Assembly (NCBI GenBank): GCA_019162745.1 | Contig: JAFLLC010000140.1 | Span: 1-36,537 of the forward strand | Origin: Deltaproteobacteria bacterium | GTDB lineage: Bacteria > Desulfobacterota > Desulfuromonadia > Geobacterales > Pseudopelobacteraceae | Direction: 5' to 3' | Length of the DNA: 36,537 nucleotides | Shown: positions 3,770 to 26,605 of the stretch, piece by piece | How positions within the stretch are numbered: position 1 is the first letter of the stretch | Layout of the letters: each line of letters starts with the position of its first letter | Made by a program: the position numbers and the translations under genes | The notes under the pieces: model-generated | The model's input: the letters and a program-made list of their open reading frames with translations, nothing else | Databases searched by the model: none | What the model was told of the DNA's origin: nothing

Positions 3770-5080
3770 TCAAAACACCCGTTTATCGATAACTCTCTGA
3801 GCCTTCCCCTCATGACGCGGTATACTGTTTGGTTCTACCAGCTTTACCGTCACGCCGACACCGAGGACAGAATCAATCCTTTTTCCGACCATATCAAGAA
3901 AAGCGCGTTGTTTTTTCATTTCGTCGAAGAAGATATTCTCTCTCACCTCGATACAAACCTCCAGCACATCCAACGCACCCTTACGATCAACAACCAGTTG
4001 ATAGTGCGGTTCACACCCCTCTATCGCAACCAGCACCTCCTCTATTTGGGAAGGGAAAACGTTAACCCCCTTGATTATCAGCATATCATCAGTACGCCCC
4101 ATGGTTTTTTTCATTCTGGCCATGGTCCTTCCACAGAGGCAGGCAGCATAGTCAAGAGTAGTAATATCCCGAGTACGATAGCGAATCATCGGGAGGGCTT
4201 CCTTGCTGATAGTGGTCAGCACGAGTTCACCGACACTTCCCGGGGGGAGGACCTGACAGGTTTCCGGATCGATTATCTCGGCGATGAACGCATCCTCGGC
4301 GATATGCATGCCGTTTTTAAAGTGGCATTCACCCGCAACACCAGGACCGATAATTTCAGAAAGACCGTAATTATCAGTGGCGCTGATCATCAGGCGTGAC
4401 TCTATTTCGGTGCGCATAGCTTCAGACCAGGGTTCACCGCCAAAAAGGCCGACCCTAAGAGAGAGCGTCTGCGGATCTATACCCTGTTTTTCAATCAGTT
4501 CCGCAAGCGTGACCGCATAGCTCGGGGTACAGACAAGCGCAGTAGATTTGTAGTCCTGCATGATCATGATCTGCTTGTCGCTGTTCCCTCCGCTCATCGG
4601 GATAACAGCCGCTCCAATCGCCTCAGATCCGTAGTGGAGACCAAATGCCCCGGTAAACATGCCATAACCGAATGCGATCTGCACAACATCATCGTGGGTA
4701 ACACCGGCTGCTGTCATGATTCTGGCGACCAGATTGGACCACATTTTCAAATCATTTTTGGTGTATCCGACAACGGTAGGCTTTCCGGTCGTACCTGACG
4801 AGGAATGGATACGGACAATCTCGCGCAGCGGCACTGCAAACATCCCGTACGGGTAATTGAGTCGCAGATCCTCTTTGGTAGTAAAGGGGAGCTTCGACAG
4901 ATCAGACAGTGAAGCAACATCCTCCGGAACAATGCCAAGTTCATTAAACTTGTTTCGGTAACATGGCACATTCTTGTAGACGCGATTTAATGTCGCCTGA
5001 AGACGCTCCAACTGGAGTTGTTCAAGCTCTTCACGAGGCATACATTCATGTTGAGAATCCCATATCTGGCTTGACTGCAT
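3770..5080 (-). CDS. paaK: Phenylacetate-CoA ligase family AMP-forming enzyme
   Basis: The 436-residue product belongs to the adenylate-forming superfamily, PaaK branch, whose members activate aryl acids such as phenylacetate with ATP and CoA. The phosphate-binding loop [10 protein letters not shown] occupies residues 91-100, followed by VVGYT. The adenosine-binding motif DNYGLSE and the RYRTRD hinge region are present, and the C-terminal AMP-ligase domain ends with the lysine-containing [10 protein letters not shown]. It starts 28 nt after the proS stop codon, so it is probably co-transcribed with proS. Paralogues of this family in anaerobes include indolepyruvate-linked arylacetyl-CoA ligases and F390 synthetase-like proteins, so the exact acid substrate is uncertain. 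Confidence 0.9.
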
Positions 5081-5108
5081 TTAAAAAAACCTCGCGCCGA
5101 AGTTATTG

Positions 5109-6839
5109 TTAATCTTTGTTTGCCAATGCCGCATCTATCAACTGTTTAACGGTAGTCGCCACATCATCCAGCAAAAGCGGCAGCACTTCACCGGTCGAGC
5201 GGATCTTCAGCTCAACCTTCCCTTCGGCCAACCCTTTACTTCCGACTACAATCCGGAAAGGAATTCCGATCAGGTCGTTATCTTTGAATTTCACACCCGG
5301 GCGCTCGTCCCGATCATCAAAAAGCACCTCAACACCGAGTTTTTCGAGACAGAAATAAATTTCTTCGGCAGCAGCCATGACGCCGGAGTCCTTGGTATTA
5401 ACTGCTACCACCGAGCAGTGAAATGGAGCGATTGCAACAGGAAATATGATGCCGTTTTCATCATGATTCTGCTCGATAGCCGCTGCAACGGTGCGACCTA
5501 TACCGATGCCGTAACACCCCATGAAGATAATCTGCTCTCTGCCGTTGGCATCAAGGTAGGTAGCATTCAGCGCCTTGGAATATTTGGTCCCGAGTTTGAA
5601 CACATGTCCGACTTCAATCCCGCGCCAAATTTCAAGTTTTCCGGATTGGCAGCGAGGACAAGCATCACCCGCCTCGGCTGTACGGATATCGACAAACCCG
5701 GAAACCTCAAAATCACGGCCCAGATTGGCGTTAACGTAGTGCTGATCCTTTTCATTGGCACCTAAAACAGCATTGGTCATACCCTCAATTACCCTGTCGG
5801 CAATCACCGGAATGTCCTCTTTAAGGCCAATTGGTCCCAAGAAACCGACAGGAGACCCGGTGCAGGCAAGTATCTGCTCTTCACTCGCCATCAGGATTTC
5901 GTCCCATCCAAGATAATTTTTGAGTTTAAGCTCGTTAAGTTCATGATCGCCACGCAGCAGCGCCATCACCAGATCGCCGCTGCCTGAAGCGTAAACAAGC
6001 GTTTTTATTGTTTGATCAGCTGTAACATTCAGAAATGCGGCAACATCGGCAATAGTTTTCATTTCAGGTGTTGAAACTTTCTGTAATGATTTAACAGCAG
6101 CATCAGATGATGCCGAATATAAAGGAGATTCAGCTTTTTCTATATTCGCTGTATATCGGCATGCATCGCAGGAAACTATGGCATCTTCGCCAGAATCAGC
6201 CAGCACCATGAACTCATGCGAAGAAGATCCACCGATACTGCCGGTGTCAGCTTCCACAGCTCTGAAATTAAGGCCGCAGCGTTCGAAAATGCGCATATAC
6301 GCGTTAAACATTTTTTCGTAGGAGAGATCTGCCGCTGAGCTGTCTACATCAAATGAGTAGGCATCTTTCATGATGAACTCGCGTCCGCGCATCAAGCCGA
6401 AGCGGGGGCGAATTTCGTCGCGAAACTTGGTCTGGATCTGATAGAAATTAAGCGGCATCTGCCGGTAGCTTTTTATCTCGCGCCGCACCATGTCGGTAAT
6501 GACCTCTTCGTGGGTCGGTCCCATACAGAATTCGGCCTCTTTACGGTCCTTGAAGCGGAGCAGTTCTTTACCGTAAAAAGCCCAGCGCCCTGACTCCTGC
6601 CACAGTTCGGCCGGCTGAACGCTCGGCATCAGCATCTCTATTGCATCGGCTCTGTTCATCTCTTCGCGGACGATATTCTCGAATTTGCGGATCGAACGGA
6701 GCCCAAGCGGCAGATAGTTATAGATCCCGGAGGCGAGCTTGCGGATCATTCCTGCTCTCAGCATCAGCTGGTGTGAGATAACCTCAGCGTCAGAGGGAGT
6801 TTCCTTGATGGTCGGTATAAAATAGCGCGAGTAAAGCAT
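5109..6839 (-). CDS. proS: Prolyl-tRNA synthetase, bacterial type
   Basis: Class II aminoacyl-tRNA synthetase that charges tRNA-Pro. At 576 residues it has the bacterial architecture: catalytic core with N-terminal LMLRAGMIRKLASGIYNYLP, motif 2 around FRDEIRPRFGLMRGREF, the editing (INS) domain in the middle (including DACRYTAN), motif 3 at CYGIGIGRTVAA, and a C-terminal anticodon-binding domain. It starts ATG 10 nt downstream of the ispG stop codon, so ispG and proS look like one transcript, as in other Geobacter-type genomes. No missing key element was seen. Confidence 0.97.
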   Translation of the reverse strand: MLYSRYFIPTIKETPSDAEVISHQLMLRAGMIRKLASGIYNYLPLGLRSIRKFENIVREEMNRADAIEMLMPSVQPAELWQESGRWAFYGKELLRFKDRKEAEFCMGPTHEEVITDMVRREIKSYRQMPLNFYQIQTKFRDEIRPRFGLMRGREFIMKDAYSFDVDSSAADLSYEKMFNAYMRIFERCGLNFRAVEADTGSIGGSSSHEFMVLADSGEDAIVSCDACRYTANIEKAESPLYSASSDAAVKSLQKVSTPEMKTIADVAAFLNVTADQTIKTLVYASGSGDLVMALLRGDHELNELKLKNYLGWDEILMASEEQILACTGSPVGFLGPIGLKEDIPVIADRVIEGMTNAVLGANEKDQHYVNANLGRDFEVSGFVDIRTAEAGDACPRCQSGKLEIWRGIEVGHVFKLGTKYSKALNATYLDANGREQIIFMGCYGIGIGRTVAAAIEQNHDENGIIFPVAIAPFHCSVVAVNTKDSGVMAAAEEIYFCLEKLGVEVLFDDRDERPGVKFKDNDLIGIPFRIVVGSKGLAEGKVELKIRSTGEVLPLLLDDVATTVKQLIDAALANKD

Positions 6840-6849
6840 TTCAAAGCCC

Positions 6850-7896
6850 CTATAATTTGGATATTTCTTCCATCAATGCATCAGCGAGATTCTCTTCAGG
6901 CACCTTACGAACAATTTCACCATAGCGGAATACGAGTCCTTCGCCTTTTCCGCCAGCAATCCCGACATCAGCTTCACGTGCTTCACCTGGTCCATTGACG
7001 GCGCATCCCATGACGGCAACGGTAATCTGTTTATCAACCCCCTGCAGTCGCCTCTCAACCTCCTCCGCAACCCTGATCAGATCAATCTGGCACCGCCCGC
7101 AGGTGGGACAGGAAACAAAGTTTACCCCACGCTGGCGTAATCCGACCGCTTTAAGAATATCATAGGCAACCCGTACCTCATCTCTCGGCGCACCGGTCAA
7201 AGAGACCCTCATCGTATCACCGATCCCGTCCGCCAGAAGGATGCCAAGTCCGACCGACGATTTAATCGTCCCGGAGAAAAGTGTGCCGGCTTCTGTAACA
7301 CCGATATGTAGAGGGTAATCGGACTGCGCCGAGAAAATACGGTATGCGTCGACAGTTTTCATTACGTCAGATGCTTTAAGAGAAATCTTTATTTCCCGAT
7401 AATTTAAATCCTCGAGGATGCGAATGTGGCCCATAGCAGATTCAACCATAGCCTCGGCTGTCGGATGGCCATACCTCTGCAGCAGCTCTTTTTCAAGCGA
7501 ACCGGCATTGACCCCTATCCTGATCGGAACCTTGCGCTCGGCAGCAGACGCAACAATTTCGGCAACCTTCCATTTCTCGCCGATATTGCCGGGATTGAGC
7601 CGCAGACCGTCGATGCCCCCTTCAAGAACCTGCAGCGCCAGTTTATAGTCAAAATGGATATCGGCGACAACCGGAATGGGGCTCATCTGCTTGATCTCTG
7701 CCAAGGCGAGGGCAGCGTCCATATCGGGTACCGCACAACGGACTATTTCGCAGCCGACTTCGGCAAGCTCTTTAATTTGGGCGATTGTAGCAGATATATC
7801 ACGTGTATCGGTGCTGCACATCGACTGTACTGAACAGGGAGCATCACCACCGATCGGTACAGAGCCGATATAAATTTGCCGGGTTATTTTTTTCAT
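6850..7896 (-). CDS. ispG: 4-hydroxy-3-methylbut-2-enyl diphosphate synthase
   Basis: IspG (GcpE) converts methylerythritol cyclodiphosphate to HMBPP in the MEP isoprenoid pathway using a [4Fe-4S] cluster. The TIM-barrel N-terminus carries SVQSMCSTDTRD. Near the C-terminus the cluster ligands appear as SCPTCGRC plus GCAVNGPGEA. The start is uncertain: the ATG at 7896 gives 348 residues beginning MKKITRQIYIG, close to where family homology starts, while a TTG at 7914 would add six residues. Neither has a good Shine-Dalgarno sequence. proS follows after 10 nt. In related genomes rseP often precedes ispG; here the neighbour is a formate/nitrite channel instead. Confidence 0.93.
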   Translation of the reverse strand: MKKITRQIYIGSVPIGGDAPCSVQSMCSTDTRDISATIAQIKELAEVGCEIVRCAVPDMDAALALAEIKQMSPIPVVADIHFDYKLALQVLEGGIDGLRLNPGNIGEKWKVAEIVASAAERKVPIRIGVNAGSLEKELLQRYGHPTAEAMVESAMGHIRILEDLNYREIKISLKASDVMKTVDAYRIFSAQSDYPLHIGVTEAGTLFSGTIKSSVGLGILLADGIGDTMRVSLTGAPRDEVRVAYDILKAVGLRQRGVNFVSCPTCGRCQIDLIRVAEEVERRLQGVDKQITVAVMGCAVNGPGEAREADVGIAGGKGEGLVFRYGEIVRKVPEENLADALMEEISKL

Positions 7897-7978
7897 GGAG
7901 GTGCATAGTGCCAAAGACGGGCGGGAAAGTCAAGAACGACGCGTAGTTTCAGTGATGCATCAGCCCAGATGGATTCTA

Positions 7979-8806
7979 CTATAGCGGCCGTTCCGGTGCA
8001 TCTATTGCGCCGTAGGCGTACCAATACGCACCGGCAACAAAAAAAACGCCACCGATAATATTGCCAAGAGTAACCGGCAGCAGATTCACAACTAAGAAGT
8101 TATACCAGTTCAGCGCATGATCTGGAGACGCATTTTTGCCGGTAATAAACAGACCGGTTGGAATGTAATACATATTGGCAATAGAGTGTTCAAAACCACT
8201 CGAAACAAAGGTCATGATAGGCACATAGCACGCAAGTAATTTTCCGGTAATATCACGGGCGGCTGTGGCCATAAACACAGCAAGGCAGACAAGCCAGTTA
8301 CAGAGGATTCCCCGAACAAAAGCGGCAGTAAAAGAGAGCTGACATTTGACAGTTGCAGTGCGAATGGCGTTTTCGGCAACGCTCCCCTGTTCCCAAAGTC
8401 GCGTTTCGTACATTAACCAGGCAAAGAACAGGGCTCCTGCAAAATTACCGACCAGCACAATTGCCCAGTTTTTGGCAAGACTACTCCATGATATTTCACC
8501 ATGAAGGGCCGCCCCGGCCAGCAGACTGTTTCCGGTAAACAGTTCAGCGCCGCAGACAACAACGAGCATCAAACCGATGGAAAACAGGCTCCCGCCCAGA
8601 AACCGGGCAATCCCGACGCCGACAAAAGGGGCTGCATCCTGTGTGATCACAGTTGACAGTTGAGCGCCGAAGGCGATGTAAAATCCGGCCAGAAGACTGA
8701 GAACAAGGGTCCGCCCGACGCTTTGCTCCAGGACACGGCGCCCGTTCTTTGCAATCGCATGTGCCGCCTCTCGTGGCGTTAAAAACATTCTATGGTCAGA
8801 ACTCAT
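7979..8806 (-). CDS. Formate/nitrite transporter (FNT) family channel
   Basis: FNT proteins are pentameric inner-membrane channels for formate, nitrite, hydrosulfide or related small anions. The 275-residue product has six predicted membrane spans, with family-typical stretches such as GAELFTGN and SSGFEHSIANMYYIP, the latter corresponding to the central pore region. The frame is open further upstream, but residues before MSSDHRMFLTPREAA look unlike the family; 8806 is chosen on homology, with a weak ribosome-binding site. It lies head-to-head with the selenocysteine peroxiredoxin and 65-83 nt upstream of ispG on the same strand. FocA and NirC subtypes cannot be separated safely by eye. Confidence 0.88.
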   Translation of the reverse strand: MSSDHRMFLTPREAAHAIAKNGRRVLEQSVGRTLVLSLLAGFYIAFGAQLSTVITQDAAPFVGVGIARFLGGSLFSIGLMLVVVCGAELFTGNSLLAGAALHGEISWSSLAKNWAIVLVGNFAGALFFAWLMYETRLWEQGSVAENAIRTATVKCQLSFTAAFVRGILCNWLVCLAVFMATAARDITGKLLACYVPIMTFVSSGFEHSIANMYYIPTGLFITGKNASPDHALNWYNFLVVNLLPVTLGNIIGGVFFVAGAYWYAYGAIDAPERPL

Positions 8807-9917: not shown

Positions 9918-10022
9918 ATAATCGCACCTATGATGAACTGGACAGCGCAATTTAGGAGCAACGGTCCGGCCTCATTTTATCGCACGAATGAACATTTGCA
10001 GCTTCGTGTAATAACTCCGTAT

Positions 10023-10077
10023 AATAAAACAAGTAAGCTTCCTATATCAGTCATATAGGAAGCTTACTTGTTTTATT
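10023..10077. terminator. Perfect 25-bp inverted repeat, ancestral tRNA-Ala terminator
   Basis: Arms 10023-10047 and 10053-10077 are perfect complements around a 5-nt loop. Read on the minus strand the hairpin directly follows the CCA end of the tRNA remnant and ends in a T-rich tail (TTGTTTTATTATA). It is best explained as the terminator that served the tRNA-Ala gene before an element inserted. Confidence 0.8.
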
Positions 10078-10123
10078 TGGTGGAGGTTAACGGGATCGAA
10101 CCGATGGCCTCGTCGCTGTCAGC
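10078..10123 (-). repeat. Duplicated 3' half of tRNA-Ala (attachment-site remnant)
   Basis: This 46-bp segment matches 11415-11460, the CCA end through the anticodon region of the intact tRNA-Ala(GGC), at 44 of 46 positions. The match stops abruptly in the anticodon stem. A partial tRNA copy separated from the intact gene by foreign-looking DNA is the standard footprint of tyrosine-recombinase integration into a tRNA 3' end. Confidence 0.88.
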
Positions 10124-10471
10124 CATAACACGCTGAAATATCAGAACTAAACTTACTTTTTAGCACTTATTTAGTTGTCAATTTACGTCGAACTAATGGG
10201 ATCGAAAACAGGCAAAGTTTCTACCCTCTATAAGTACCCTTTTAAGCTCCAAAAACGCTCAACAAGCCTCTCTAAGATTATTTCTATAAGCGATATGGAT
10301 AGCAACATAACAGGGGCTTAGAGGGTACTCTATGGATCCTTGTCTGATGAATGAGCCAGTAGATTACTTTATGTTAGACTTTAAGTCTGATGCTGTTAGT
10401 TATTGGATTGCTTATTTCCGCCTCAGGAGTAAAGCAGATGGACTTCACTCCAGTGCCTTTTCGCAGGTCAT
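10124..10471. other. Non-coding end of the integrated element with repeated RAGGGTACT motifs
   Basis: No credible gene is seen. A short motif recurs in both orientations: TACCCTCTA at 10222-10230, an AGGGTACTTA copy on the minus strand just beside it, and TAGAGGGTACTCTA at 10319-10332. Clustered short repeats near an attachment site could be recombinase arm or excisionase sites, but no protein is present to test this against. Confidence 0.35.
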
Positions 10472-10690
10472 TCATTGTGACTTTATTTTTCGAACTACCT
10501 TTAGCTCTGTCTTGGACTTAGTAACACTTACTTCATTTTTAGGTTTTGTAGCATTCTTTACCCATTCTGCTAATTTCTGCTGCTCATTGGTTGCTGGTTT
10601 TGCCATGTCTGCAGCTGTACGGATACCTTCAGATTCTGCCCATACTCTACCGAATATTGCGACACAATCCCCTTTTGTTAATTTACTCAA
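10472..10690 (-). CDS. Hypothetical 72-residue protein of the integrated element
   Basis: I do not recognise this protein. It is soluble and basic, with a lysine-rich C-terminus (SKTELKVVRKIKSQ) and an N-terminal part beginning MSKLTKGDCVAIFGRVWAES. The start is TTG at 10690, supported by ATAGGAG seven nucleotides upstream. It is the last gene of the element's minus-strand gene run, which points away from the tRNA. The composition is more AT-rich than neighbouring chromosomal genes. A DNA-binding or regulatory role would be a guess. Confidence 0.6.
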   Translation of the reverse strand: MSKLTKGDCVAIFGRVWAESEGIRTAADMAKPATNEQQKLAEWVKNATKPKNEVSVTKSKTELKVVRKIKSQ

Positions 10691-10700
10691 TGTTTATCTC

Positions 10701-10795
10701 CTATTGTTTTGATGACATGTCAAGAGCATGAAACTCCACGCCCTCATAATGTAAACTATTGTGAGGGATAATTAAACTATAGGAGCTTTGATAAC
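10701..10795 (-). pseudogene. Decayed copy of the element's 36-codon ORF
   Basis: On the minus strand this stretch ends SLHYEGVEFHALDMSSKQ-stop. It matches the end of the intact 36-residue ORF (SLKYEGVEFVGL) in protein and over about 27 nt of DNA (10731-10757 against 11160-11186). No ATG, GTG or TTG start is available upstream in frame. It sits just before the 72-residue gene, as the intact copy sits just before the 108-residue gene, suggesting a duplicated two-gene module. Confidence 0.45.
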
Positions 10796-10797
10796 TC

Positions 10798-11124
10798 CTA
10801 CTTTTTAGCTAGTTGATCTTGAGGCTTTCGTTTAGTCCTATAACCATCCTTTTTATTACTTGCTTGCATAAACTTTAGCTCTTCTTCAGTCATGACTATA
10901 ACAGACGTAATATCTTCTGTATCAGCTATACTTGCTTTCTTTGTTGACTTACTCCTCCCCGATGATGCCGATGCCTTGGCTGCTTTATTAATCCTCTTCA
11001 TAGGCGGTGCTGTAGGATCATAGCCAGAACAAACAACACTGTAAGGAAATTCTGTGAGGATACAACCAGCAAATACTGTAGATGGTAGAGTAAGTAATAG
11101 AAACACTATCAGGCTTTTCATCAT
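10798..11124 (-). CDS. Hypothetical secreted or lipid-anchored 108-residue protein
   Basis: The N-terminus is a clear signal peptide: two Met and a Lys, a hydrophobic core SLIVFLLLTLPSTVFA, then GC at residues 20-21. The sequence FAGC is close to a lipobox, so lipid anchoring is possible, although the -3 Phe is not ideal. The mature part contains PMKRINKAAKASASS, followed by a Lys/Arg-rich tail. No known domain is recognised. The start is supported by CAGGAG 8 nt upstream, and the ATG overlaps the stop codon of the 36-residue ORF (ATGA), indicating coupled translation. It belongs to the tRNA-bounded element. Confidence 0.65.
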   Translation of the reverse strand: MMKSLIVFLLLTLPSTVFAGCILTEFPYSVVCSGYDPTAPPMKRINKAAKASASSGRSKSTKKASIADTEDITSVIVMTEEELKFMQASNKKDGYRTKRKPQDQLAKK

Positions 11125-11231
11125 TTAATAAACTCCTGCTGAAACTCCGTGAGTCCTACGAACTCCACGCCTTCATACTTCAGACTGTCTATGGTTGCCT
11201 TCATCTTGGCTATCTTGTATCTACTTACCAT
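11121..11231 (-). CDS. Small 36-residue ORF coupled to the secreted protein
   Basis: The product begins MVSRYKIAKMKATIDSL and ends in EFQQEFIK; no family is recognised. Its TGA overlaps the ATG of the 108-residue gene (ATGA). A degraded copy of its last third lies at 10701-10795. Conservation of SLxYEGVEF between the copies suggests it was truly translated. The ribosome-binding site is weak, so it may depend on translation of the overlapping 24-codon ORF upstream. Confidence 0.45.
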   Translation of the reverse strand: MVSRYKIAKMKATIDSLKYEGVEFVGLTEFQQEFIK

Positions 11232-11295
11232 AACGTCCGGTGGTCAGGCGATAGTAATACATTTCTTTAACTTGGTATAGATTTGGTGTGGTCAT
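11221..11295 (-). CDS. Possible 24-residue leader-type ORF
   Basis: MTTPNLYQVKEMYYYRLTTG followed by RYGK and TAG. A good ribosome-binding site (AAGGGGGA) precedes the ATG at 11295, and the 3' end overlaps the start of the 36-residue ORF by 11 nt in another frame. It may be a coupling leader for the element genes, or the truncated front of a longer protein broken by a frameshift into the 36-codon frame. Confidence 0.35.
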   Translation of the reverse strand: MTTPNLYQVKEMYYYRLTTGRYGK

Positions 11296-11362
11296 AATGT
11301 CCCCCTTTGTGGGCAAAGAATTGGGACAACCTAGGAAATGCTATTGGAAGGAGTTTTAGATA

Positions 11363-11401
11363 CAAAAAAATCACTCTATCTTTAAGTAAGTTAGAGTGAT
11401 T
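11363..11401 (-). terminator. Terminator of tRNA-Ala supplied by the element
   Basis: On the minus strand, AATCACTCTA/TAGAGTGATT arms (11392-11401 and 11369-11378) form a 10-bp stem followed by seven T. It lies 13 nt beyond the CCA end of the intact tRNA, inside the element. Confidence 0.8.
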
Positions 11402-11414
11402 CTAAAGTGTGTTT

Positions 11415-11490
11415 TGGTGGAGGTTAACGGGATCGAACCGATGACCTCGTCGCTGCCAGCGACGCGCTCTCCCAGCTGAGCTAAACCCCC
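11415..11490 (-). tRNA. tRNA-Ala (anticodon GGC)
   Basis: The 76-nt minus-strand sequence folds as a full tRNA with encoded CCA. The acceptor stem is GGGGGTT/AACCTCC and includes the G3:U70 pair that specifies alanine. The D arm is GCTCAGCTGGGAGAGC, the anticodon stem is CGTCG/CGACG around CTGGCAG (anticodon GGC), and the T arm contains GGTTCGATCCC. It reads Ala GCC and GCU codons. Its 3' half is duplicated at 10078-10123, marking it as an integration site. Confidence 0.97.
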
Positions 11491-12194
11491 AAACATTGAA
11501 CATTTTATGTACCTACGAATACCGATACGCGCTTAGCAACATAAATCTGTGTAAATTATGCGTATTTTTGTAAAAAAGCATCCGCATGACCCGAAGTTGG
11601 CGGCTCCGAAAATGTCCGAAGTAAATACAACAAACAGTGGCTCTCGTCAATATATATTTTCATAAAAGCTCCAGCGGGAAAACTTCGAACATTGATGCTG
11701 CTATTCACAGAAAGGTTTTGAGAGAAGTCACGAAGCACTCTTTCCACCCGTCAGCAGCACGTGTTTTGTTAACCAGACGCCGGGGGTATGAGGTAGACTG
11801 TCCGCCTATTCTGGACTCCGGCAAGCTGGATTTGGAAATGGATCAAGGAGATTGAGTCTAGCGGCAGCGGATGGATGATATGACGGGGAGGTCGACTATT
11901 ACCACATTATGAAAGTGGGTGTTAATACAGGCATTACGTGCTATACAGAATTCGCTCGTTGGGGTGATTGAAAACAGCAAAATCAAGATCGTGCTGGATG
12001 TTTTGGTAGCGAAGAGCGGGACTACCGGAGACAGGCTGATATAAAAGTCACGGGATAAATGTTCCATTTGGGTAGATCACCGTTTCAAGCGAGCACGTGA
12101 AACGGTCTACAACGAGTTGAGATAACGTCGACACCGATCAGGTATAAATCTAGAATCAGGCTTACATTCCACGCAGCTTATGGAGTTTTAAAAC
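11491..12194. other. About 700 bp without an intact gene, probably decayed DNA
   Basis: No open frame here has both a credible start and family-like sequence. A 43-codon stretch at about 11922-12053 on the plus strand (ending VLVAKSGTTGDRLI-stop) looks protein-like, but no start or partner frame is convincing. An imperfect hairpin ACCGTTTCA (12079-12087)/TGAAACGGT (12098-12106) lacks a T tail. The stretch lies directly outside the tRNA-Ala gene and may hold remains of older insertions. Any promoter for tRNA-Ala must also lie here. Confidence 0.4.
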
Positions 12195-20699: not shown

Positions 20700-22280
20700 A
20701 TGTCTGCATCCGCCATGACCACATATATTCTGGAATCACTCCGGAATCCGACTGCATACCCGGTTCAGACCAGTACGGTAGAACTTGTACAAACGCACAT
20801 CTCCTGGCTCTTTCTGACCGACACACACGTCTTCAAACTCAAAAAGCCGGTTAATTTCGGTTTTCTCGACTTTTCAACACTCGATCTTCGCCGTTTCTAC
20901 TGTTATGAGGAACTTCGTCTCAATCGGCGTCTCTGCCCGGATATTTACGAACAGGTCATAGCGCTTCGTGAAACAGATGCCGGCGCCGCTTTTGTCGGTA
21001 ACGGGAAAGTGATTGAGTATGCCGTTATGATGAAACGGCTCCCTGCTGACAGAATGCTTGACATCCTCGTTGACTGCGGCATGATTTCAACCGAAGAGAT
21101 TCAGATAATAGCGCTTGAAATAAGCAGATTCCACTCAAACGCCGCCACTTCGCCGCATATTTCTAAATTCGGCTCTCTTGAACAGATTCAGTATAATTGG
21201 CGAGAAAATTTTGAACAGGCACTCCCATTCCAGACCTCCACCCTCCCACCTGATGTCTTTGAAACCATTCGCTCCTACGTTGAAATGTTTACCGACTCAC
21301 ACAGCGCTCTTTTTGCTGAGAGGGTTGAGAACGGCTATATCCGTGAATGTGACGGTGATATCCACCTCGAGAATATCTGCCTGCTGAACAATACTGCATA
21401 TATCTTCGACTGCATCGAATTTAATGAACGCTTTCGCTATTCAGATACAGCCGCCGACATTGCCTTTTTGCTTATGGATCTTGACTTCCACAGTCGTTCT
21501 GACCTCGCTGATGCGGCGCTGACGGCCTATATCACGGCAAGCGGCGACACGGGCCTTATAAAATTAATTACTTTTTATAAGGTGTATCGCGCCTTCGTTC
21601 GCGGTAAGGTCGAAAGTCTACAGCTTCAAGACACCGGTATTATTAAAGAAGCTCGCACTGTCGCAGAAAAAAAAGCCATCCGCTACTTCCAGCTGGCACA
21701 GGGTTACTGCTTGAGAAGCGCTCTCCCCCCTACCCTGTTTATAACCTCCGGTACAATGGGATGCGGAAAAAGTACTCTGGCAGGCCAGCTTGCATTTGAA
21801 CTCGGCCTTGCAATCTTCAACTCGGATACCGTACGTAAGCAATTGGCAGGATTACTGCCGCAAACGGCGATCCAGATATCATTTGGAAAGGGGCTTTATT
21901 CCCGCGAAATGAGCCAGAGAACCTACCGTGAACTTGAGCGATTGGCCAAAAGTGAACTCGCCTCCGGGCATTCAACCGTAATTGATGCAGGTTTTGGAAC
22001 CGCTGCCGAGCGAGCCCGATTTGCTCAATTGGCCGCTTCTAAAGGCTTAGAATTTATCATTCTATTCGTAGAGTGTGAGCCCGACGAGCAGCGACAAAGA
22101 TTACGCGAGCGTTCTTCACGCGGTGACTCAGTTTCCGATGGAAGAGTTGAATTATTGGATCAACAAAAAACTCTTTTTGAACCTCCTTCTGATTCGGAAG
22201 GCAGGATCATTTCAATTTCTACAAGCGAAGGAGCAGAATTCGCTTTACAATCAGTTTACACAAAGCTGTTCCGGTCATGA
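20700..22280 (+). CDS. Bifunctional APH-like kinase / P-loop ATP-binding protein
   Basis: A 526-residue fusion of an aminoglycoside-phosphotransferase-like domain (COG2187 type, residues about 1-330) and a P-loop kinase-like domain (COG0645 type, about 340-526). In the first half the catalytic loop reads IRECDGDIHLENI; the first position of the usual HGDxH motif is Asp rather than His. The DFD-like metal motif appears as FDCIEFNERFRYSD. In the second half Walker A is G351-TMGCGKST, followed by FNSDTVRKQL. The substrates are unknown; drug resistance is not implied. The stop codon overlaps the next start (ATGA), so it is translationally coupled to the small membrane protein and symporter-phosphatase. 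The ATG at 20715 is an alternative start. Confidence 0.85.
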   Translation: MSASAMTTYILESLRNPTAYPVQTSTVELVQTHISWLFLTDTHVFKLKKPVNFGFLDFSTLDLRRFYCYEELRLNRRLCPDIYEQVIALRETDAGAAFVGNGKVIEYAVMMKRLPADRMLDILVDCGMISTEEIQIIALEISRFHSNAATSPHISKFGSLEQIQYNWRENFEQALPFQTSTLPPDVFETIRSYVEMFTDSHSALFAERVENGYIRECDGDIHLENICLLNNTAYIFDCIEFNERFRYSDTAADIAFLLMDLDFHSRSDLADAALTAYITASGDTGLIKLITFYKVYRAFVRGKVESLQLQDTGIIKEARTVAEKKAIRYFQLAQGYCLRSALPPTLFITSGTMGCGKSTLAGQLAFELGLAIFNSDTVRKQLAGLLPQTAIQISFGKGLYSREMSQRTYRELERLAKSELASGHSTVIDAGFGTAAERARFAQLAASKGLEFIILFVECEPDEQRQRLRERSSRGDSVSDGRVELLDQQKTLFEPPSDSEGRIISISTSEGAEFALQSVYTKLFRS

Positions 22281-22531
22281 AGCGGCTGCTTTCACAAATG
22301 CTCTACCGTCTGCAACTGCCGGAATCATGGGTAATTTTTTTCATTCTCGGCATTATCATGATGACATTTCCGTTTTTGCATATTTTCAACAAACCGGTAC
22401 TACTGTTCGGTGTGCCGCTGCTGTTTCTCTATTTAACAGCGGGGTGGATAATTTCGATTATCGTAATTTACCTTTTTATGATTGCCAGTCGCCATGGAAG
22501 CAGGCCTACGGATGAAAAGGACGAGTTATGA
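22277..22531 (+). CDS. Small two-helix membrane protein coupled to the symporter-phosphatase
   Basis: The 84-residue protein has two strong hydrophobic segments: about 19-37 (VIFFILGIIMMTFPFLHIF) and 41-69, then a short charged tail. It overlaps the gene before and the gene after it by 4 nt (ATGA at both ends). No family is recognised. The arrangement recalls CbrX, the small hydrophobic protein coupled to the symporter-kinase CbrA in Pseudomonas, and small helper subunits of other SSS transporters. It may assist folding, stability or sensing by the 1082-residue partner (inference). Confidence 0.8.
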   Translation: MKRLLSQMLYRLQLPESWVIFFILGIIMMTFPFLHIFNKPVLLFGVPLLFLYLTAGWIISIIVIYLFMIASRHGSRPTDEKDEL

Positions 22532-25500
22532 ACGGCGTTATCTCCTCAGTTGCTGTCATATCGGTTATTTATACCGCACTGATATTTCTGATCGCATGGT
22601 ACGCTCACCATCGCAAAGAGACCGGGCGGAGCATAATCAGCAATCCAATCATCTATTCTCTCTCACTGGGAGTTTACTGCACATCATGGACCTTCTTCGG
22701 CAGCGTTGGAAAGGCGGCTACGACCGGAATTGATTTCGTACTGATTTACCTCGGTCCATCGCTAACAGCTTTTTCATGGCTTTTCCTTCTTCGCCGTATT
22801 ATCAAGATAAGCAAAGAACATAACATCACTTCGATTGCTGATTTTCTTAGTAGGCGCTACGGAAAATCACCATGGCTTGGCGCGCTTGTCACACTTATCG
22901 CCTTCCTCGGCATCATGCCTTATATTGCTCTGCAGTTAAAGGCCGTTTCAACCAGCTTTTTTCTTCTCAGCGGTTTTCAAAAAGATCCTAACAATTATAT
23001 TACACTTGCATCCGGCACTACCATTCCTATTGCCCTGCTTCTGGCCTTAATTCTGGCTCTTTTCAGTATCGTTTTTGGAGCAAGGAGGCTTGTATCGTCA
23101 GAGCGGCATGAAGGTCTGATTGCGGCTATAGCTTTTGAATCAATTGTCAAACTGGTCGCCCTCCTCGCCGTCGGATTATTTGTCACCTACGGCCTTTTTG
23201 ATGGTTTCATTGATATCTTCGAACGATTCAGGATCACAAACCCGGAAAAATTCTCGCAATTATTCACATTCGCAGTTTCCAGAAATGATCCCAATTACAT
23301 ATCAACCTTTACACTCCTGTTTTTATCAATGGGTGCGGTTATGCTCCTGCCGCGCCAGTTTCACGTCATGGTCATTGAAAATTCAGATGTACGTCACATT
23401 GCTACTGCGATGTGGCTCTTCCCTGCATATATGTTCCTTATCAATCTCTTCGTCATGCCGATTGCCATCGGCGGCATCCTCACCACCGGCAGCAGCAGTG
23501 GTGCTGACTACTTTGTTCTTTCCCTCCCTCAGCTTGCAGGATACCGCGGTATTGCTCTACTTGCATTTCTGGGCGGTTTTTCAGCCGCTGCCGGAATGGT
23601 TATGGTTGAATCAATTGCCATATCAACCATGTTACTAAACCATATCTTCATGCCGATCATTGTCCTGTTTACTCCCAGAACATGGTTCCCTATTTTACTG
23701 ATTAACTTAAAGCGATTTGGAATACTTCTGGTTGTATTGATGGGATATTTTTATTACCGGATAATAGGTGACTCGTACACACTGGTGAATATGGGACTAA
23801 TCTCCTTTGCTGCGGCCGCGCAATTCATGCCGGCCATGCTGGGGGGGCTTTACTGGAAACGCGGCAACAAGGCCGGAGCAATCAGCGGCATCCTGCTCGG
23901 CTTTCTGATCTGGCTCTATACCTTGCTGCTCCCTTCTTTCAGCAAATCAGGCTGGATTCCGGATAATCTCTTTTCAAACGGTCCCTTCGGCATCACGTTG
24001 CTTAAACCGACCGAACTATTCGGTCTGACCGGCATGGATCTTTGGAGCCATTCCCTGTTCTGGAGCATGCTTTTCAATGTCAGCTCCTATATTATTTGTT
24101 CGATACTCTTAAATCAGAATGAACAGGAGCGCGAACAGGTTCATAAATTCATCGGTATTTTTGGCCATGATGAATCTCAAAAACGTACCGAGCGAAAAAG
24201 GCTTTCAAAACCGGTTACAACCGATCAGTTCGTAACGCTTATGAGCAAGTTCATCGGTGAATCTGAAGCCCGGCGGGCACTTCAACTTTATTCAAACGGT
24301 CGGAACATAACCGGAGACGGAACCATTTCCGAATTTGAGCTCCCGGACCTGAAGCGATTTACAGAAAAAACCTTGGCAGGTTCGGTAGGTGGTGCAGCAG
24401 CTGGGGCTATCGTAAACAACTTCCTCTCTGACATCGGCTCCAGCATGGAGCCGGTTTATGACATTTTCAGCAGCGTTAGAACAAATCTTGACCAAAATCG
24501 CGAATCATTATTTGTACGTCTGAAGGCTTCCGAGATCATCAATCGTACGTTAGACCTGCAGGTAATCATGGATGACCTGCTCAGATTGTTGGTGAAAGAG
24601 TTCAAGCTTGATGTGGCACTGATAGTTAAAAAGAATGATGAAGGTACTTTTTCAATCGTCAGTAGCCAGGGAGAAAAACTTTCACCAACCAATCCGCCTC
24701 ACTTATGTCTGAAAAATGTACCACTACTAAATTTGGTCTATCACGATAAAAAAACACATTTTATAAATGATCTGCGACTAGACCGTGCTGCTGTCACGCT
24801 TGATCCAAAAACGGATCAAAGCTACATTTCGTGTGCTCATATCCCGATCTATCGAGAAGGGGAACCGGTTATAGCGGTACTTTCCCTGTTATCTAAAACA
24901 ATAGCCGGTCTTTTTACCCAGGAATTCATCGAGCTGTTGTCAAGCCTTGCGGGCCAGCTTGCTCAGGCTATCACAATAGTCCGGGAGGTTGAAGCCAAGC
25001 AGCTTGAACGGAGTCAAAAAGAAGCGGCTCTTCTGAAAACTGCCAGAATCACGCGCGACATGGAAATCGCCCAGCAGATTCAAAAATCTTTCCTCCCCGA
25101 TTCCGCACCGTCAATAGCGGGTGTCGATATTGCCGGACGCTGCATTTCCGCTGCTCTTGTCGGAGGGGACTACTATGACTTTTTTCTCCGCAGCCGCCAG
25201 ATCGTAGACATTGTTATTGCCGATGTTTCAGGTCATAGCATCGGTGCTGCTCTGATAATGTCGGAAGTGCGCACACTGCTGAGAGCAGAGGCCAATTCTG
25301 TTCACACCCCGTGTGCCGTCCTTGAAACCCTCAATAATCAACTGCATGATGATCTGTCCCGGGCCGAACTGTTCATTACAATGTTTTATGCAGAATACAA
25401 CGCAGAGACCGGTATACTCAGCTACTCCAACGCCGGTCACAATCACCCGGTTCTTCAGCGCAGGGACGAATCTGTACCAATGGAACTGGATACGGAAGGA

Positions 25501-25776
25501 TTGATATTGGGGGTTAAAAAAGATGTCCTTTTTGAAGAACGAACCATTAAACTTATAGCCGGTGATGTTCTTCTTTTCTACACAGACGGCCTGACAGAAG
25601 CATGCAACAGCAAAGGCGAGATGTTTGACCTGTCAGGTGTGTACAGCCATCTCAAAACATGCCTACATCTCTCTGCTGAAGAAATTCTTGATTCATTTTA
25701 TGCCAGGATTCATGAATTTACCGGTTCTCAAAATCTGCAGGATGATATATCGTTTATAGCAGTAAAAATACTTTGA
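22528..25776 (+). CDS. Sodium/solute symporter-STAC-GAF-PP2C (SpoIIE) phosphatase fusion
   Basis: A 1082-residue inner-membrane protein. Residues 1 to about 530 form an SSS-family sodium/solute symporter with roughly 13 spans (for example YCTSWTFFGSVGKAATTG). Residues about 560-635 resemble the STAC domain that links symporters to signalling modules (ending FTEKTLAGSVGGAAAGAIV). A GAF domain spans about 670-830. The C-terminal PP2C domain (about 845-1082) has EIAQQIQKSFLP, the metal-site VGGDYYDF (about 877), DVSGHS (898), AGHNHP (970), FYTDGLTEA (1015) and QDDISF. Related CbrA-type proteins end in a histidine kinase; here a phosphatase takes its place. A STAS protein and an RsbW-like kinase follow at once, so the fusion probably dephosphorylates that STAS protein when substrate is bound or transported (inference). 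Confidence 0.92.
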   Translation: MNGVISSVAVISVIYTALIFLIAWYAHHRKETGRSIISNPIIYSLSLGVYCTSWTFFGSVGKAATTGIDFVLIYLGPSLTAFSWLFLLRRIIKISKEHNITSIADFLSRRYGKSPWLGALVTLIAFLGIMPYIALQLKAVSTSFFLLSGFQKDPNNYITLASGTTIPIALLLALILALFSIVFGARRLVSSERHEGLIAAIAFESIVKLVALLAVGLFVTYGLFDGFIDIFERFRITNPEKFSQLFTFAVSRNDPNYISTFTLLFLSMGAVMLLPRQFHVMVIENSDVRHIATAMWLFPAYMFLINLFVMPIAIGGILTTGSSSGADYFVLSLPQLAGYRGIALLAFLGGFSAAAGMVMVESIAISTMLLNHIFMPIIVLFTPRTWFPILLINLKRFGILLVVLMGYFYYRIIGDSYTLVNMGLISFAAAAQFMPAMLGGLYWKRGNKAGAISGILLGFLIWLYTLLLPSFSKSGWIPDNLFSNGPFGITLLKPTELFGLTGMDLWSHSLFWSMLFNVSSYIICSILLNQNEQEREQVHKFIGIFGHDESQKRTERKRLSKPVTTDQFVTLMSKFIGESEARRALQLYSNGRNITGDGTISEFELPDLKRFTEKTLAGSVGGAAAGAIVNNFLSDIGSSMEPVYDIFSSVRTNLDQNRESLFVRLKASEIINRTLDLQVIMDDLLRLLVKEFKLDVALIVKKNDEGTFSIVSSQGEKLSPTNPPHLCLKNVPLLNLVYHDKKTHFINDLRLDRAAVTLDPKTDQSYISCAHIPIYREGEPVIAVLSLLSKTIAGLFTQEFIELLSSLAGQLAQAITIVREVEAKQLERSQKEAALLKTARITRDMEIAQQIQKSFLPDSAPSIAGVDIAGRCISAALVGGDYYDFFLRSRQIVDIVIADVSGHSIGAALIMSEVRTLLRAEANSVHTPCAVLETLNNQLHDDLSRAELFITMFYAEYNAETGILSYSNAGHNHPVLQRRDESVPMELDTEGLILGVKKDVLFEERTIKLIAGDVLLFYTDGLTEACNSKGEMFDLSGVYSHLKTCLHLSAEEILDSFYARIHEFTGSQNLQDDISFIAVKIL

Positions 25777-25792
25777 GCGTAAGGGGGATGGC

Positions 25793-26131
25793 ATGGATCT
25801 TAAAACTGAAAACATGGAAGGTGTTGCCGTGCTGTTTGTCAGGGAAGACCGCCTTGATGCAAACAATTCTGAAGAGCTTAAAACAGAATTACGGCGTCTT
25901 TTTGATAGCGGCACGAAAGATCTGGTGATTGATCTTAAGGAAATACATTTTATCGACAGTTCAGGGTTGGGGGTACTGGTTTCAGGTTATAAAAATGCTT
26001 CTATCCTGCACGGCAGTCTTAAATTGTCGAATTTGCAGTCTCAGGTGAAGTCAATGTTCGAATTAACGAGGCTGCAGAGGGTTTTTGATATTTTTACATC
26101 TGTTGATGACGCACTGCAGAGTTATCGGTAA
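25793..26131 (+). CDS. STAS domain anti-sigma factor antagonist (RsbV/SpoIIAA-like)
   Basis: This 112-residue single-domain protein is the switch of a partner-switching circuit. Unphosphorylated, such proteins bind the anti-sigma kinase and free its other partner; phosphorylated on a serine, they let go. The phospho-site motif HFIDSSGLGVLVSG is intact, and the first serine, S56, aligns with SpoIIAA S58. AGGGGG precedes the ATG. It begins 16 nt after the symporter-phosphatase stop codon and is followed by the HATPase gene, completing the set. Confidence 0.93.
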   Translation: MDLKTENMEGVAVLFVREDRLDANNSEELKTELRRLFDSGTKDLVIDLKEIHFIDSSGLGVLVSGYKNASILHGSLKLSNLQSQVKSMFELTRLQRVFDIFTSVDDALQSYR

Positions 26132-26176
26132 TTCCCTGATTTAAAGATGGGAGACAGACGCCGTGACGGGAGACTT

Positions 26177-26605
26177 ATGAAAAATGACATCGACATTGAT
26201 ATCAGAGTACCAAGTCATACTCGCTACTTGCGTATGATCGGCAGGATTGGTGAAGAAGTGGCCAGGGAGACAGATTGTCCGGAAGGAATTCGTGAAACGT
26301 TACCCAGTCTGCTTGCCATTGTTTTGACAGAAGGCGTGGTCAACGCTATAAAACACGCACACAGCGCCGATTCGGAGGAGGATCTTCATGTCCGGATTAA
26401 CGTATCCAAGAAAGATCTGGTGGTTCGTATCTACGACAACGGCATCGGCTTTGACCTGGATGCCGTGCCGAATCACTCCCTTAATTCAAACGGACTTGAG
26501 GAAAAAGGGCGAGGAATATTCATAATTCGTTCACTGATGGACACGGTAAAGTACATACGGTCTAATAACACAAATGTTCTGGAGATGAGAAAGAGTCTGG
26601 CTTAG
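26177..26605 (+). CDS. Anti-sigma factor / serine kinase, HATPase family (RsbW-like)
   Basis: The 142-residue protein is a GHKL ATPase of the RsbW/SpoIIAB type. The N box TEGVVNAIKHA (51-61, N56), the G1 box DNGIGFD (87-93) and the G2 box EKGRGIFII (109-117) are complete, so it should bind ATP and phosphorylate the neighbouring STAS protein. The start at 26177 with GGGAG close upstream is preferred; an ATG at 26147 in the same frame has no ribosome-binding site. No sigma factor gene is in the window, so the released target is unknown and might be a response regulator or enzyme rather than a sigma factor. Confidence 0.9.
   Translation: MKNDIDIDIRVPSHTRYLRMIGRIGEEVARETDCPEGIRETLPSLLAIVLTEGVVNAIKHAHSADSEEDLHVRINVSKKDLVVRIYDNGIGFDLDAVPNHSLNSNGLEEKGRGIFIIRSLMDTVKYIRSNNTNVLEMRKSLA

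Follow-up and report, generated by a model that had tools for sequence, protein, structure and literature searches.

Among the closest described counterparts of the locus studied here is the CbrX-CbrA transceptor of Pseudomonas (PDB 10ed; PMC13022988), which resembles it in the SLC5-STAC sensor, in the lysine of the Na2 site and in the overlapping upstream gene for a small hydrophobic hairpin. In the solved transceptor, the peptide CbrX is bound to CbrA, and K196 of CbrA fills the Na2 site of the cryo-EM structure (PMC13022988). The cbrX and cbrA genes overlap by 17 nucleotides, and alteration of the CbrX sequence was reported to leave CbrA translation nearly normal (PMC6591292). CbrX is described as dispensable for growth on histidine (PMC13022988). 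CrbS/MxtR and RpuS, which regulate acetate or pyruvate use, share the SLC5-STAC sensor architecture with the present locus and, as described, differ from it in that their output is a histidine kinase working with a response regulator (PMC9100948, PMC5715377). CbrA itself ends in a PAS-DHp-CA histidine kinase, whereas the protein described below ends in GAF-PP2C.

The locus was found at positions 22277-26605 of the window (the whole stretch of DNA analysed, 36,537 nucleotides). According to the ORF listing, four consecutive ORFs encode a two-helix small membrane protein, a fusion of SLC5(SSS), STAC, GAF and PP2C domains, a STAS protein and an RsbW-like HATPase. The features of these genes and of the gene upstream of them are the following.

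20700..22280, + strand: upstream kinase-like gene, AAA_33 at residues 346-496 (ORF and Pfam)
22277..22531, + strand: CbrX-like small membrane protein, 84 aa (ORF, hydrophobic segments, profile)
22528..25776, + strand: SLC5-STAC-GAF-coiled coil-PP2C fusion, 1082 aa (Pfam, PDB profile match, model)
22528..24117, + strand: SLC5/SSS transporter-like domain of the fusion, about residues 1-530 (10ed_A match, fold matches)
23149..23151, + strand: Lys208 codon of the fusion (aligned with K196 of the CbrA Na2 site)
24205..24426, + strand: STAC-like linker domain of the fusion, about residues 560-633, boundaries approximate (aligned with the 10ed STAC region)
24550..24972, + strand: GAF domain of the fusion, residues 675-815 (Pfam, 2qyb)
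24973..25092, + strand: helical, coiled-coil-like linker of the fusion, residues about 816-855 (AlphaFold2 model)
25123..25773, + strand: PP2C/SpoIIE-type phosphatase domain of the fusion, residues about 866-1082 (Pfam SpoIIE, aligned aspartates)
25793..26131, + strand: STAS antagonist, RsbV/SpoIIAA-like, 112 aa, with DSSG (Pfam, NCBIfam, alignment)
26147..26605, + strand: RsbW-like HATPase kinase, 152 aa as called, probable true start 26177 (Pfam, NCBIfam, orthologue starts)

The row of four genes and the order of domains are those proposed in a sequence-only reading of this DNA, and ORF coordinates, Pfam and the 10ed match agree on them. That reading had also noted ATGA joins between the first two genes and between these and the preceding kinase/ATPase gene; the overlaps are present at 22277-22280 (upstream kinase gene and small protein) and at 22528-22531 (small protein and fusion). 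Among the 20 loci L083-L102, 12 had the AAA_33 gene where expected, as did 29 of the 44 loci of a neighbour survey. It is probably a frequent, not a constant, neighbour and peripheral to the system. The N-terminal half of this gene's product has no family assignment, and PADLOC gave a weak VakA match (21.4 bits) for the gene and no match for the fusion, STAS or HATPase. Neither a promoter scan (11 promoter-like sites versus 11.5 expected) nor a terminator scan (9 terminator-like sites versus 6.1 expected) revealed a clear excess. Elsewhere in the window, the GC content of positions 10001-12000, which surround tRNA-Ala(ggc) at 11415-11490, was 0.41 versus about 0.45-0.53 in the rest.

The sensor half of the fusion was recognised through CbrA. 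A profile of 24 relatives matched residues 1-633 to the CbrA SLC5-STAC chain 10ed_A with E=3.2e-87 and 296.6 bits. The Pfam family SSF (PF00474) scored below its cut-off (19.0 versus 22.8 bits) and was seen only when residues 1-558 were scanned alone. STAC was not named by the profile libraries scanned; it was called because the sequence up to residue 633 aligns with the part of 10ed that contains STAC. Because Pfam and NCBIfam were unconvincing for both SSF and STAC, the symporter-type assignment is based on homology to CbrA (10ed) and on Foldseek. An AlphaFold2 model of the fusion was of moderate quality (mean pLDDT 66.8, pTM 0.47). Its SLC5 part matched SGLT1, NIS and SiaT, and the symporter fold on which the sequence-only reading had staked its proposal was thus found in the predicted structure, mediocre as the model is, in agreement with the homology to 10ed.

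Conservation was judged from an alignment of 69 fusion rows, 68 of them distinct (L015 is identical to L118), which omits the partial fusions L019, L024, L030 and L033 as well as L034. Lys208, which aligns with CbrA K196, was Lys in 68 of the 69 rows. The transporter part had been called a sodium symporter; considering that its Na2 site holds a lysine, as in the proton-coupled CbrA, the word sodium is probably a misnomer. In the 10ed alignment, the CbrA ligand contacts Y51, S53, W55, F71 and Y75 align with Y50, T52, W54, F70 and Y74 of the fusion, and W54 was present in 69/69 rows. CbrA has F248, S251 and H257 where the fusion has S267, A270 and R276; R276 was conserved in 49 of the 50 fusions compared, and Arg was also found in 12/12 sister kinase forms. 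Since the pocket differs from that of CbrA at S267, A270 and R276, histidine is not implied as the ligand. Most naturally, these alignments suggest that the site is proton-coupled or does not use sodium and that its ligand is not histidine.

In the remaining part of the fusion, Pfam detected GAF_2 (47.3 bits, residues 675-815) and SpoIIE (172.6 bits, residues 893-1081) and found neither HisKA nor HATPase_c, i.e., no C-terminal histidine kinase. The GAF crystal structure 2qyb from Geobacter sulfurreducens PCA matched residues 662-840 with 260.6 bits. In the model, a helix at residues 798-855, partly with pLDDT under 50, lies between the GAF domain and the phosphatase. The PP2C aspartates D881, D884, D899, D1020 and D1073 were present in 69/69 rows and D1072 in 68/69, and Foldseek matched the fusion model to the phosphatases RssB, RsbU-RsbW (3ke6), SpoIIE and SiaA. 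The PP2C active site, a further feature by which the proposal was to be judged, is therefore intact in its metal-binding aspartates and accompanied by fold matches to phosphatases.

The STAS protein scored 69.1 bits with Pfam STAS and the HATPase 80.2 bits with HATPase_c_2. In NCBIfam, they scored RsbV/SpoIIAA-like and RsbW-like, respectively, both under the equivalog cut-offs (RsbW far below). D55, S56, S57 and G58 of the STAS protein were present in 62/62 rows, so that the phospho-serine site previously described as intact is indeed so across the alignment; by analogy, S57 is presumably the phospho-acceptor. The HATPase retained N-box residues E62 and N66, the DxGxG motif, G121 and G123 in 61/61 rows. 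Its true start is probably the ATG at 26177, where the orthologues begin and which is preceded by a GGGAGA-like ribosome site. The phosphatase, kinase and partner-switch chemistry attributed to these proteins, as well as transduction through the linker, are taken by analogy from known families.

The small protein has hydrophobic segments at about residues 16-38 and 44-70, and W18, G25, P32, F33, F37, P47, Y52, G56, W57 and F67 were invariant among 61 aligned small proteins. Its gene overlapped the fusion gene by four bases in 40 of 59 loci. A PDB search with the small protein found no homologous chain. A profile made only from PP2C operons was then run against 167 candidate ORFs: it detected the small protein just upstream of 24 of 34 PP2C-less sensors with E below 1e-5, and 2 further sensors of this kind were matched more weakly. 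This profile search gave no match upstream of 8 of the 34 (one of which has just 39 upstream bases) or upstream of any of 9 lone PP2C fusions. Its presence upstream of PP2C-less sensors ties the small protein to the sensor, and STAS and HATPase are tied to PP2C; the small protein goes with the sensor, not with the output, except in the lone copies. From its position, size, topology and intermediate relatives, it looks like the counterpart of CbrX. Its occurrence with sensors of different output speaks for a genuine subunit and against a role solely as a translation leader.

The distribution of the operon was studied in the class to which the window belongs. The fusion was matched in 238 of 277 genomes at E<=1e-100, a count that includes kinase forms. 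The small protein, fusion, STAS and HATPase occurred together in 20/20 full-length loci of other families in the class, taken from among the matches listed (in L085 the contig ends within the HATPase), as well as in 14/14 further loci of the order; loci for comparison were chosen from match lists, not randomly. The recurrence in other families, together with the (nearly) invariant active-site residues, indicates that the four-gene grouping is not due to chance. The HATPase was found in 46 of 58 relatives (E<=1e-25), and in all 46 a hand comparison placed it next to the fusion or to a fragment of one at a contig end. Among the 12 relatives without the HATPase, 11 lacked any match that covered both SSS and PP2C, and the remaining one, G024 (66% complete), had a fusion copy of the lone type. 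Such lone fusions were also seen in L103-L105 and L119-L121, which are lower-scoring or second copies with none of the three partner genes beside them, and in L021 and L031; in L032 the contig ends soon after the fusion. In several genomes, a lone SLC5-STAC-GAF-PP2C copy is a second copy beside the operon-borne one, and these second copies may provide that switch with a further input. Of 44 loci whose flanks were judged by eye, 28 had an lgt-like gene and 32 a gene resembling those of solute-binding proteins, and these old flanking genes suggest that the operon stands in its ancestral position. A pattern scan of one genome per species found fusions only in Geobacter-type records, although exact peptides were required and the scan is no census.

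Relatives of the sensor were also sought more widely. In a phylum sample, 77 of 395 genomes matched the fusion, 17 of them in the class. Among the matches listed for the other 60, none extended beyond fusion residue 858, so the PP2C domain was not reached. In the phylum of L034 (Neptuniibacter), 150 of 398 genomes matched, with none beyond residue 709 among the matches listed, and 367 of 72,556 plasmids matched, none covering 80% of the query. A domain scan of 34 PP2C-less sensors identified HisKA in 31, HisKA_3 in 1 and GGDEF with EAL in 1; GAF was matched in 25 and SpoIIE in 0 of the 34. The contrast drawn earlier between the fusion and CbrA-type kinases therefore stood, but the accompanying rule that symporter-STAC sensors end in a histidine kinase was too narrow, because STAC-GGDEF proteins exist (PMC5715377; L155). 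In L155 (positions 4760-8156, plasmid pAZKH of Azoarcus sp. KH32C), an SLC5-STAC sensor with GGDEF-EAL output is preceded by a 66-aa CbrX-like ORF. This small ORF carries no functional name, and the large gene after it probably begins upstream of its annotated start (5214).

A FastTree phylogeny of the SLC5-STAC regions was calculated for 82 sequences, namely 50 fusions, 31 kinase-form or other sensors and CbrA as the root; L130 and L131 are omitted from the tree and were kept in the small-protein profile search and in the domain scan of sensors. In this tree, obtained by one method with one root, all fusions formed one clade with support of 1.0. Because the fusion clade lies amid kinase-form branches, a single kinase-to-phosphatase replacement is suggested. 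As judged from these sequences, the kinase output of a transceptor was most likely swapped once for a phosphatase feeding a partner switch.

Taken together, the product of the fusion gene is probably a transceptor of the CbrA type that carries a PPM (PP2C) serine phosphatase in place of the histidine kinase and acts through it on the neighbouring STAS/HATPase switch. This view is backed by the domains, the conserved active sites, the operon, the co-occurrence, the clade structure and the small protein's occurrence beside the sensor. In the proposed mechanism, the CbrX-like hairpin would pack against SLC5. Input at SLC5, in the form of a bound ligand, transport or the proton gradient, and/or an intracellular metabolite at GAF, would change the dimeric helical linker and thereby the phosphatase. 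The HATPase would phosphorylate the STAS protein, and the fusion phosphatase would strip that phosphate. Dephosphorylated STAS could then capture the HATPase and free a sigma factor or other target held by it; alternatively, STAS itself might be the effector. Linker-driven dimerisation is thought to switch PP2C proteins with helical linkers, and a coiled-coil linker toolkit common to PPM phosphatases, histidine kinases and GGDEF proteins has been proposed (PMC12143880). An exchange of outputs on such a linker seems to have occurred naturally at this locus.

It counts against this explanation that sensing by SLC5 is doubtful in the relatives. The dispensability of CbrX noted above, the sensors and lone PP2C copies for which the profile found no small protein, the mediocre model and the lack of a linked or co-lost sigma factor weigh against it as well. 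CbrA devoid of its transmembrane part was reported still to respond to carbon availability when overproduced (PMC6591292), and the SLC5 domains of CrbS and CbrA are described as exchangeable, this exchange and deletion of STAC having little phenotype in P. fluorescens (PMC5715377). Considering also that GAF-PPM proteins are described as common regulators (PMC12143880), the GAF domain with an intracellular metabolite could be the real sensor, and SLC5-STAC-CbrX a membrane anchor or an independent transporter without control of the phosphatase. This is regarded as rather unlikely, since the pocket and Na2 residues of SLC5, including W54 and K208, are nearly invariant, and since copies within the operon retain the small protein, for which a simple anchor would have no use. 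Lone PP2C fusions beside neither STAS nor HATPase and three further STAS matches in the window's own genome could mean that the neighbouring genes are coincidental and that the phosphatase acts on other STAS proteins. However, the adjacency in 46/46 relatives, the joint absence and the same gene order across families make such a coincidence very improbable.

With the preferred transceptor-phosphatase reading, two end-points of the switch were weighed. It had been noted from the sequence that no sigma factor is next to the operon, and the five sigma-factor genes found in the genome were indeed located on other contigs. A sigma70_r2 match at G000:C43:13285-13491 lies in a 751-aa open frame, besides a 584-aa frame of RpoD size. 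There is a real chance, a little short of even, that the HATPase holds a sigma factor as RsbW does, e.g., a stationary-phase-type sigma encoded elsewhere in the genome; the family resemblance of STAS and HATPase and the number of sigma genes favour it. It is opposed by the lack of an adjacent sigma gene and of any visible co-loss: sigma70-family genes were kept in 58/58 relatives, and among the matches listed at least 8 of the 12 HATPase-less relatives had another sigma frame, 330-356 aa long. A sigma factor as a co-lost target is therefore not supported, as sigma genes persist in genomes without the operon. In addition, no sigma partner is reported as found for RbaW of Rhodobacter capsulatus (PMC3999984). 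The same absence of a linked or co-lost sigma gene suits the other end-point, in which the phosphorylation state of STAS switches an enzyme or other effector, and for which SiaC, acting on the diguanylate cyclase SiaD (PMC7647112), and the similar role proposed for RbaV (PMC3999984) are precedents. As RbaVWY of Rhodobacter (PMC3999984) and SiaABC of Pseudomonas (PMC7647112) show, a switch of this type can have an end-point other than a sigma factor. Nevertheless, no linked effector gene was recognised, and the class-wide neighbours are, by eye, not signalling genes; in the survey of 44 loci, they looked house-keeping from their N-termini and gave no hint to the target. STAS as the output is accordingly credible, at clearly less than an even chance.

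If the output of a transceptor of known sensor structure has been swapped, signal passage through SLC5-STAC becomes addressable by a simple serine-phosphatase read-out. It is plausible that Geobacter-type bacteria have a protein on/off switch to which nutrient sensing is directly linked. Such a link would give the Geobacter class, which is metal-reducing and current-producing, a nutrient-coupled partner switch not found described in the open-licence literature. More broadly and more tentatively, CbrX-SLC5-STAC(-GAF) may be an exchangeable nutrient-sensing cassette carried on histidine kinases, on GGDEF-EAL and, through a single event at the base of the Geobacter class, on a PPM phosphatase running a class-wide non-sigma partner switch; this generalisation is speculative and less probable than not.

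Parts of this arrangement are already in print, namely SSS+GAF+PP2C in Actinobacteria (PMC7918813) and STAC-GGDEF (PMC5715377). Searches of the open-licence literature did not reveal a STAC-linked phosphatase that has CbrX-like, STAS and HATPase proteins as partners, and the main text of a phosphatome survey (PMC2887360) mentions neither Geobacter nor symporters. The actinobacterial SSS+GAF+PP2C_SIG+HATPase_c proteins of a 2021 review (PMC7918813) resemble the fusion in joining SSS with GAF and PP2C. Compared by description only, they differ in carrying the HATPase on the same polypeptide, and the review's description makes no mention of STAC, a CbrX-like protein or a STAS partner (PMC7918813). 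The STAC-GGDEF proteins (PMC5715377) and L155 have the same sensor, in L155 with its CbrX-like ORF upstream, and L155 has GGDEF-EAL instead of PP2C as the output. In the described 5TMR (S-component fold)-SpoIIE fusions (PMC11109136), a transporter-related membrane fold is likewise fused to a PPM phosphatase, but that fold is unrelated and is not SLC5-STAC. Finally, RsbU/RsbV/RsbW, RbaY/RbaV/RbaW and SiaA/SiaB/SiaC share with the present operon the combination of a PP2C phosphatase, a STAS-type switch protein and a kinase. They differ from it in that their sensors are not transporter-like; in addition, SiaC is phosphorylated on Thr, and RsbW acts on a sigma factor.
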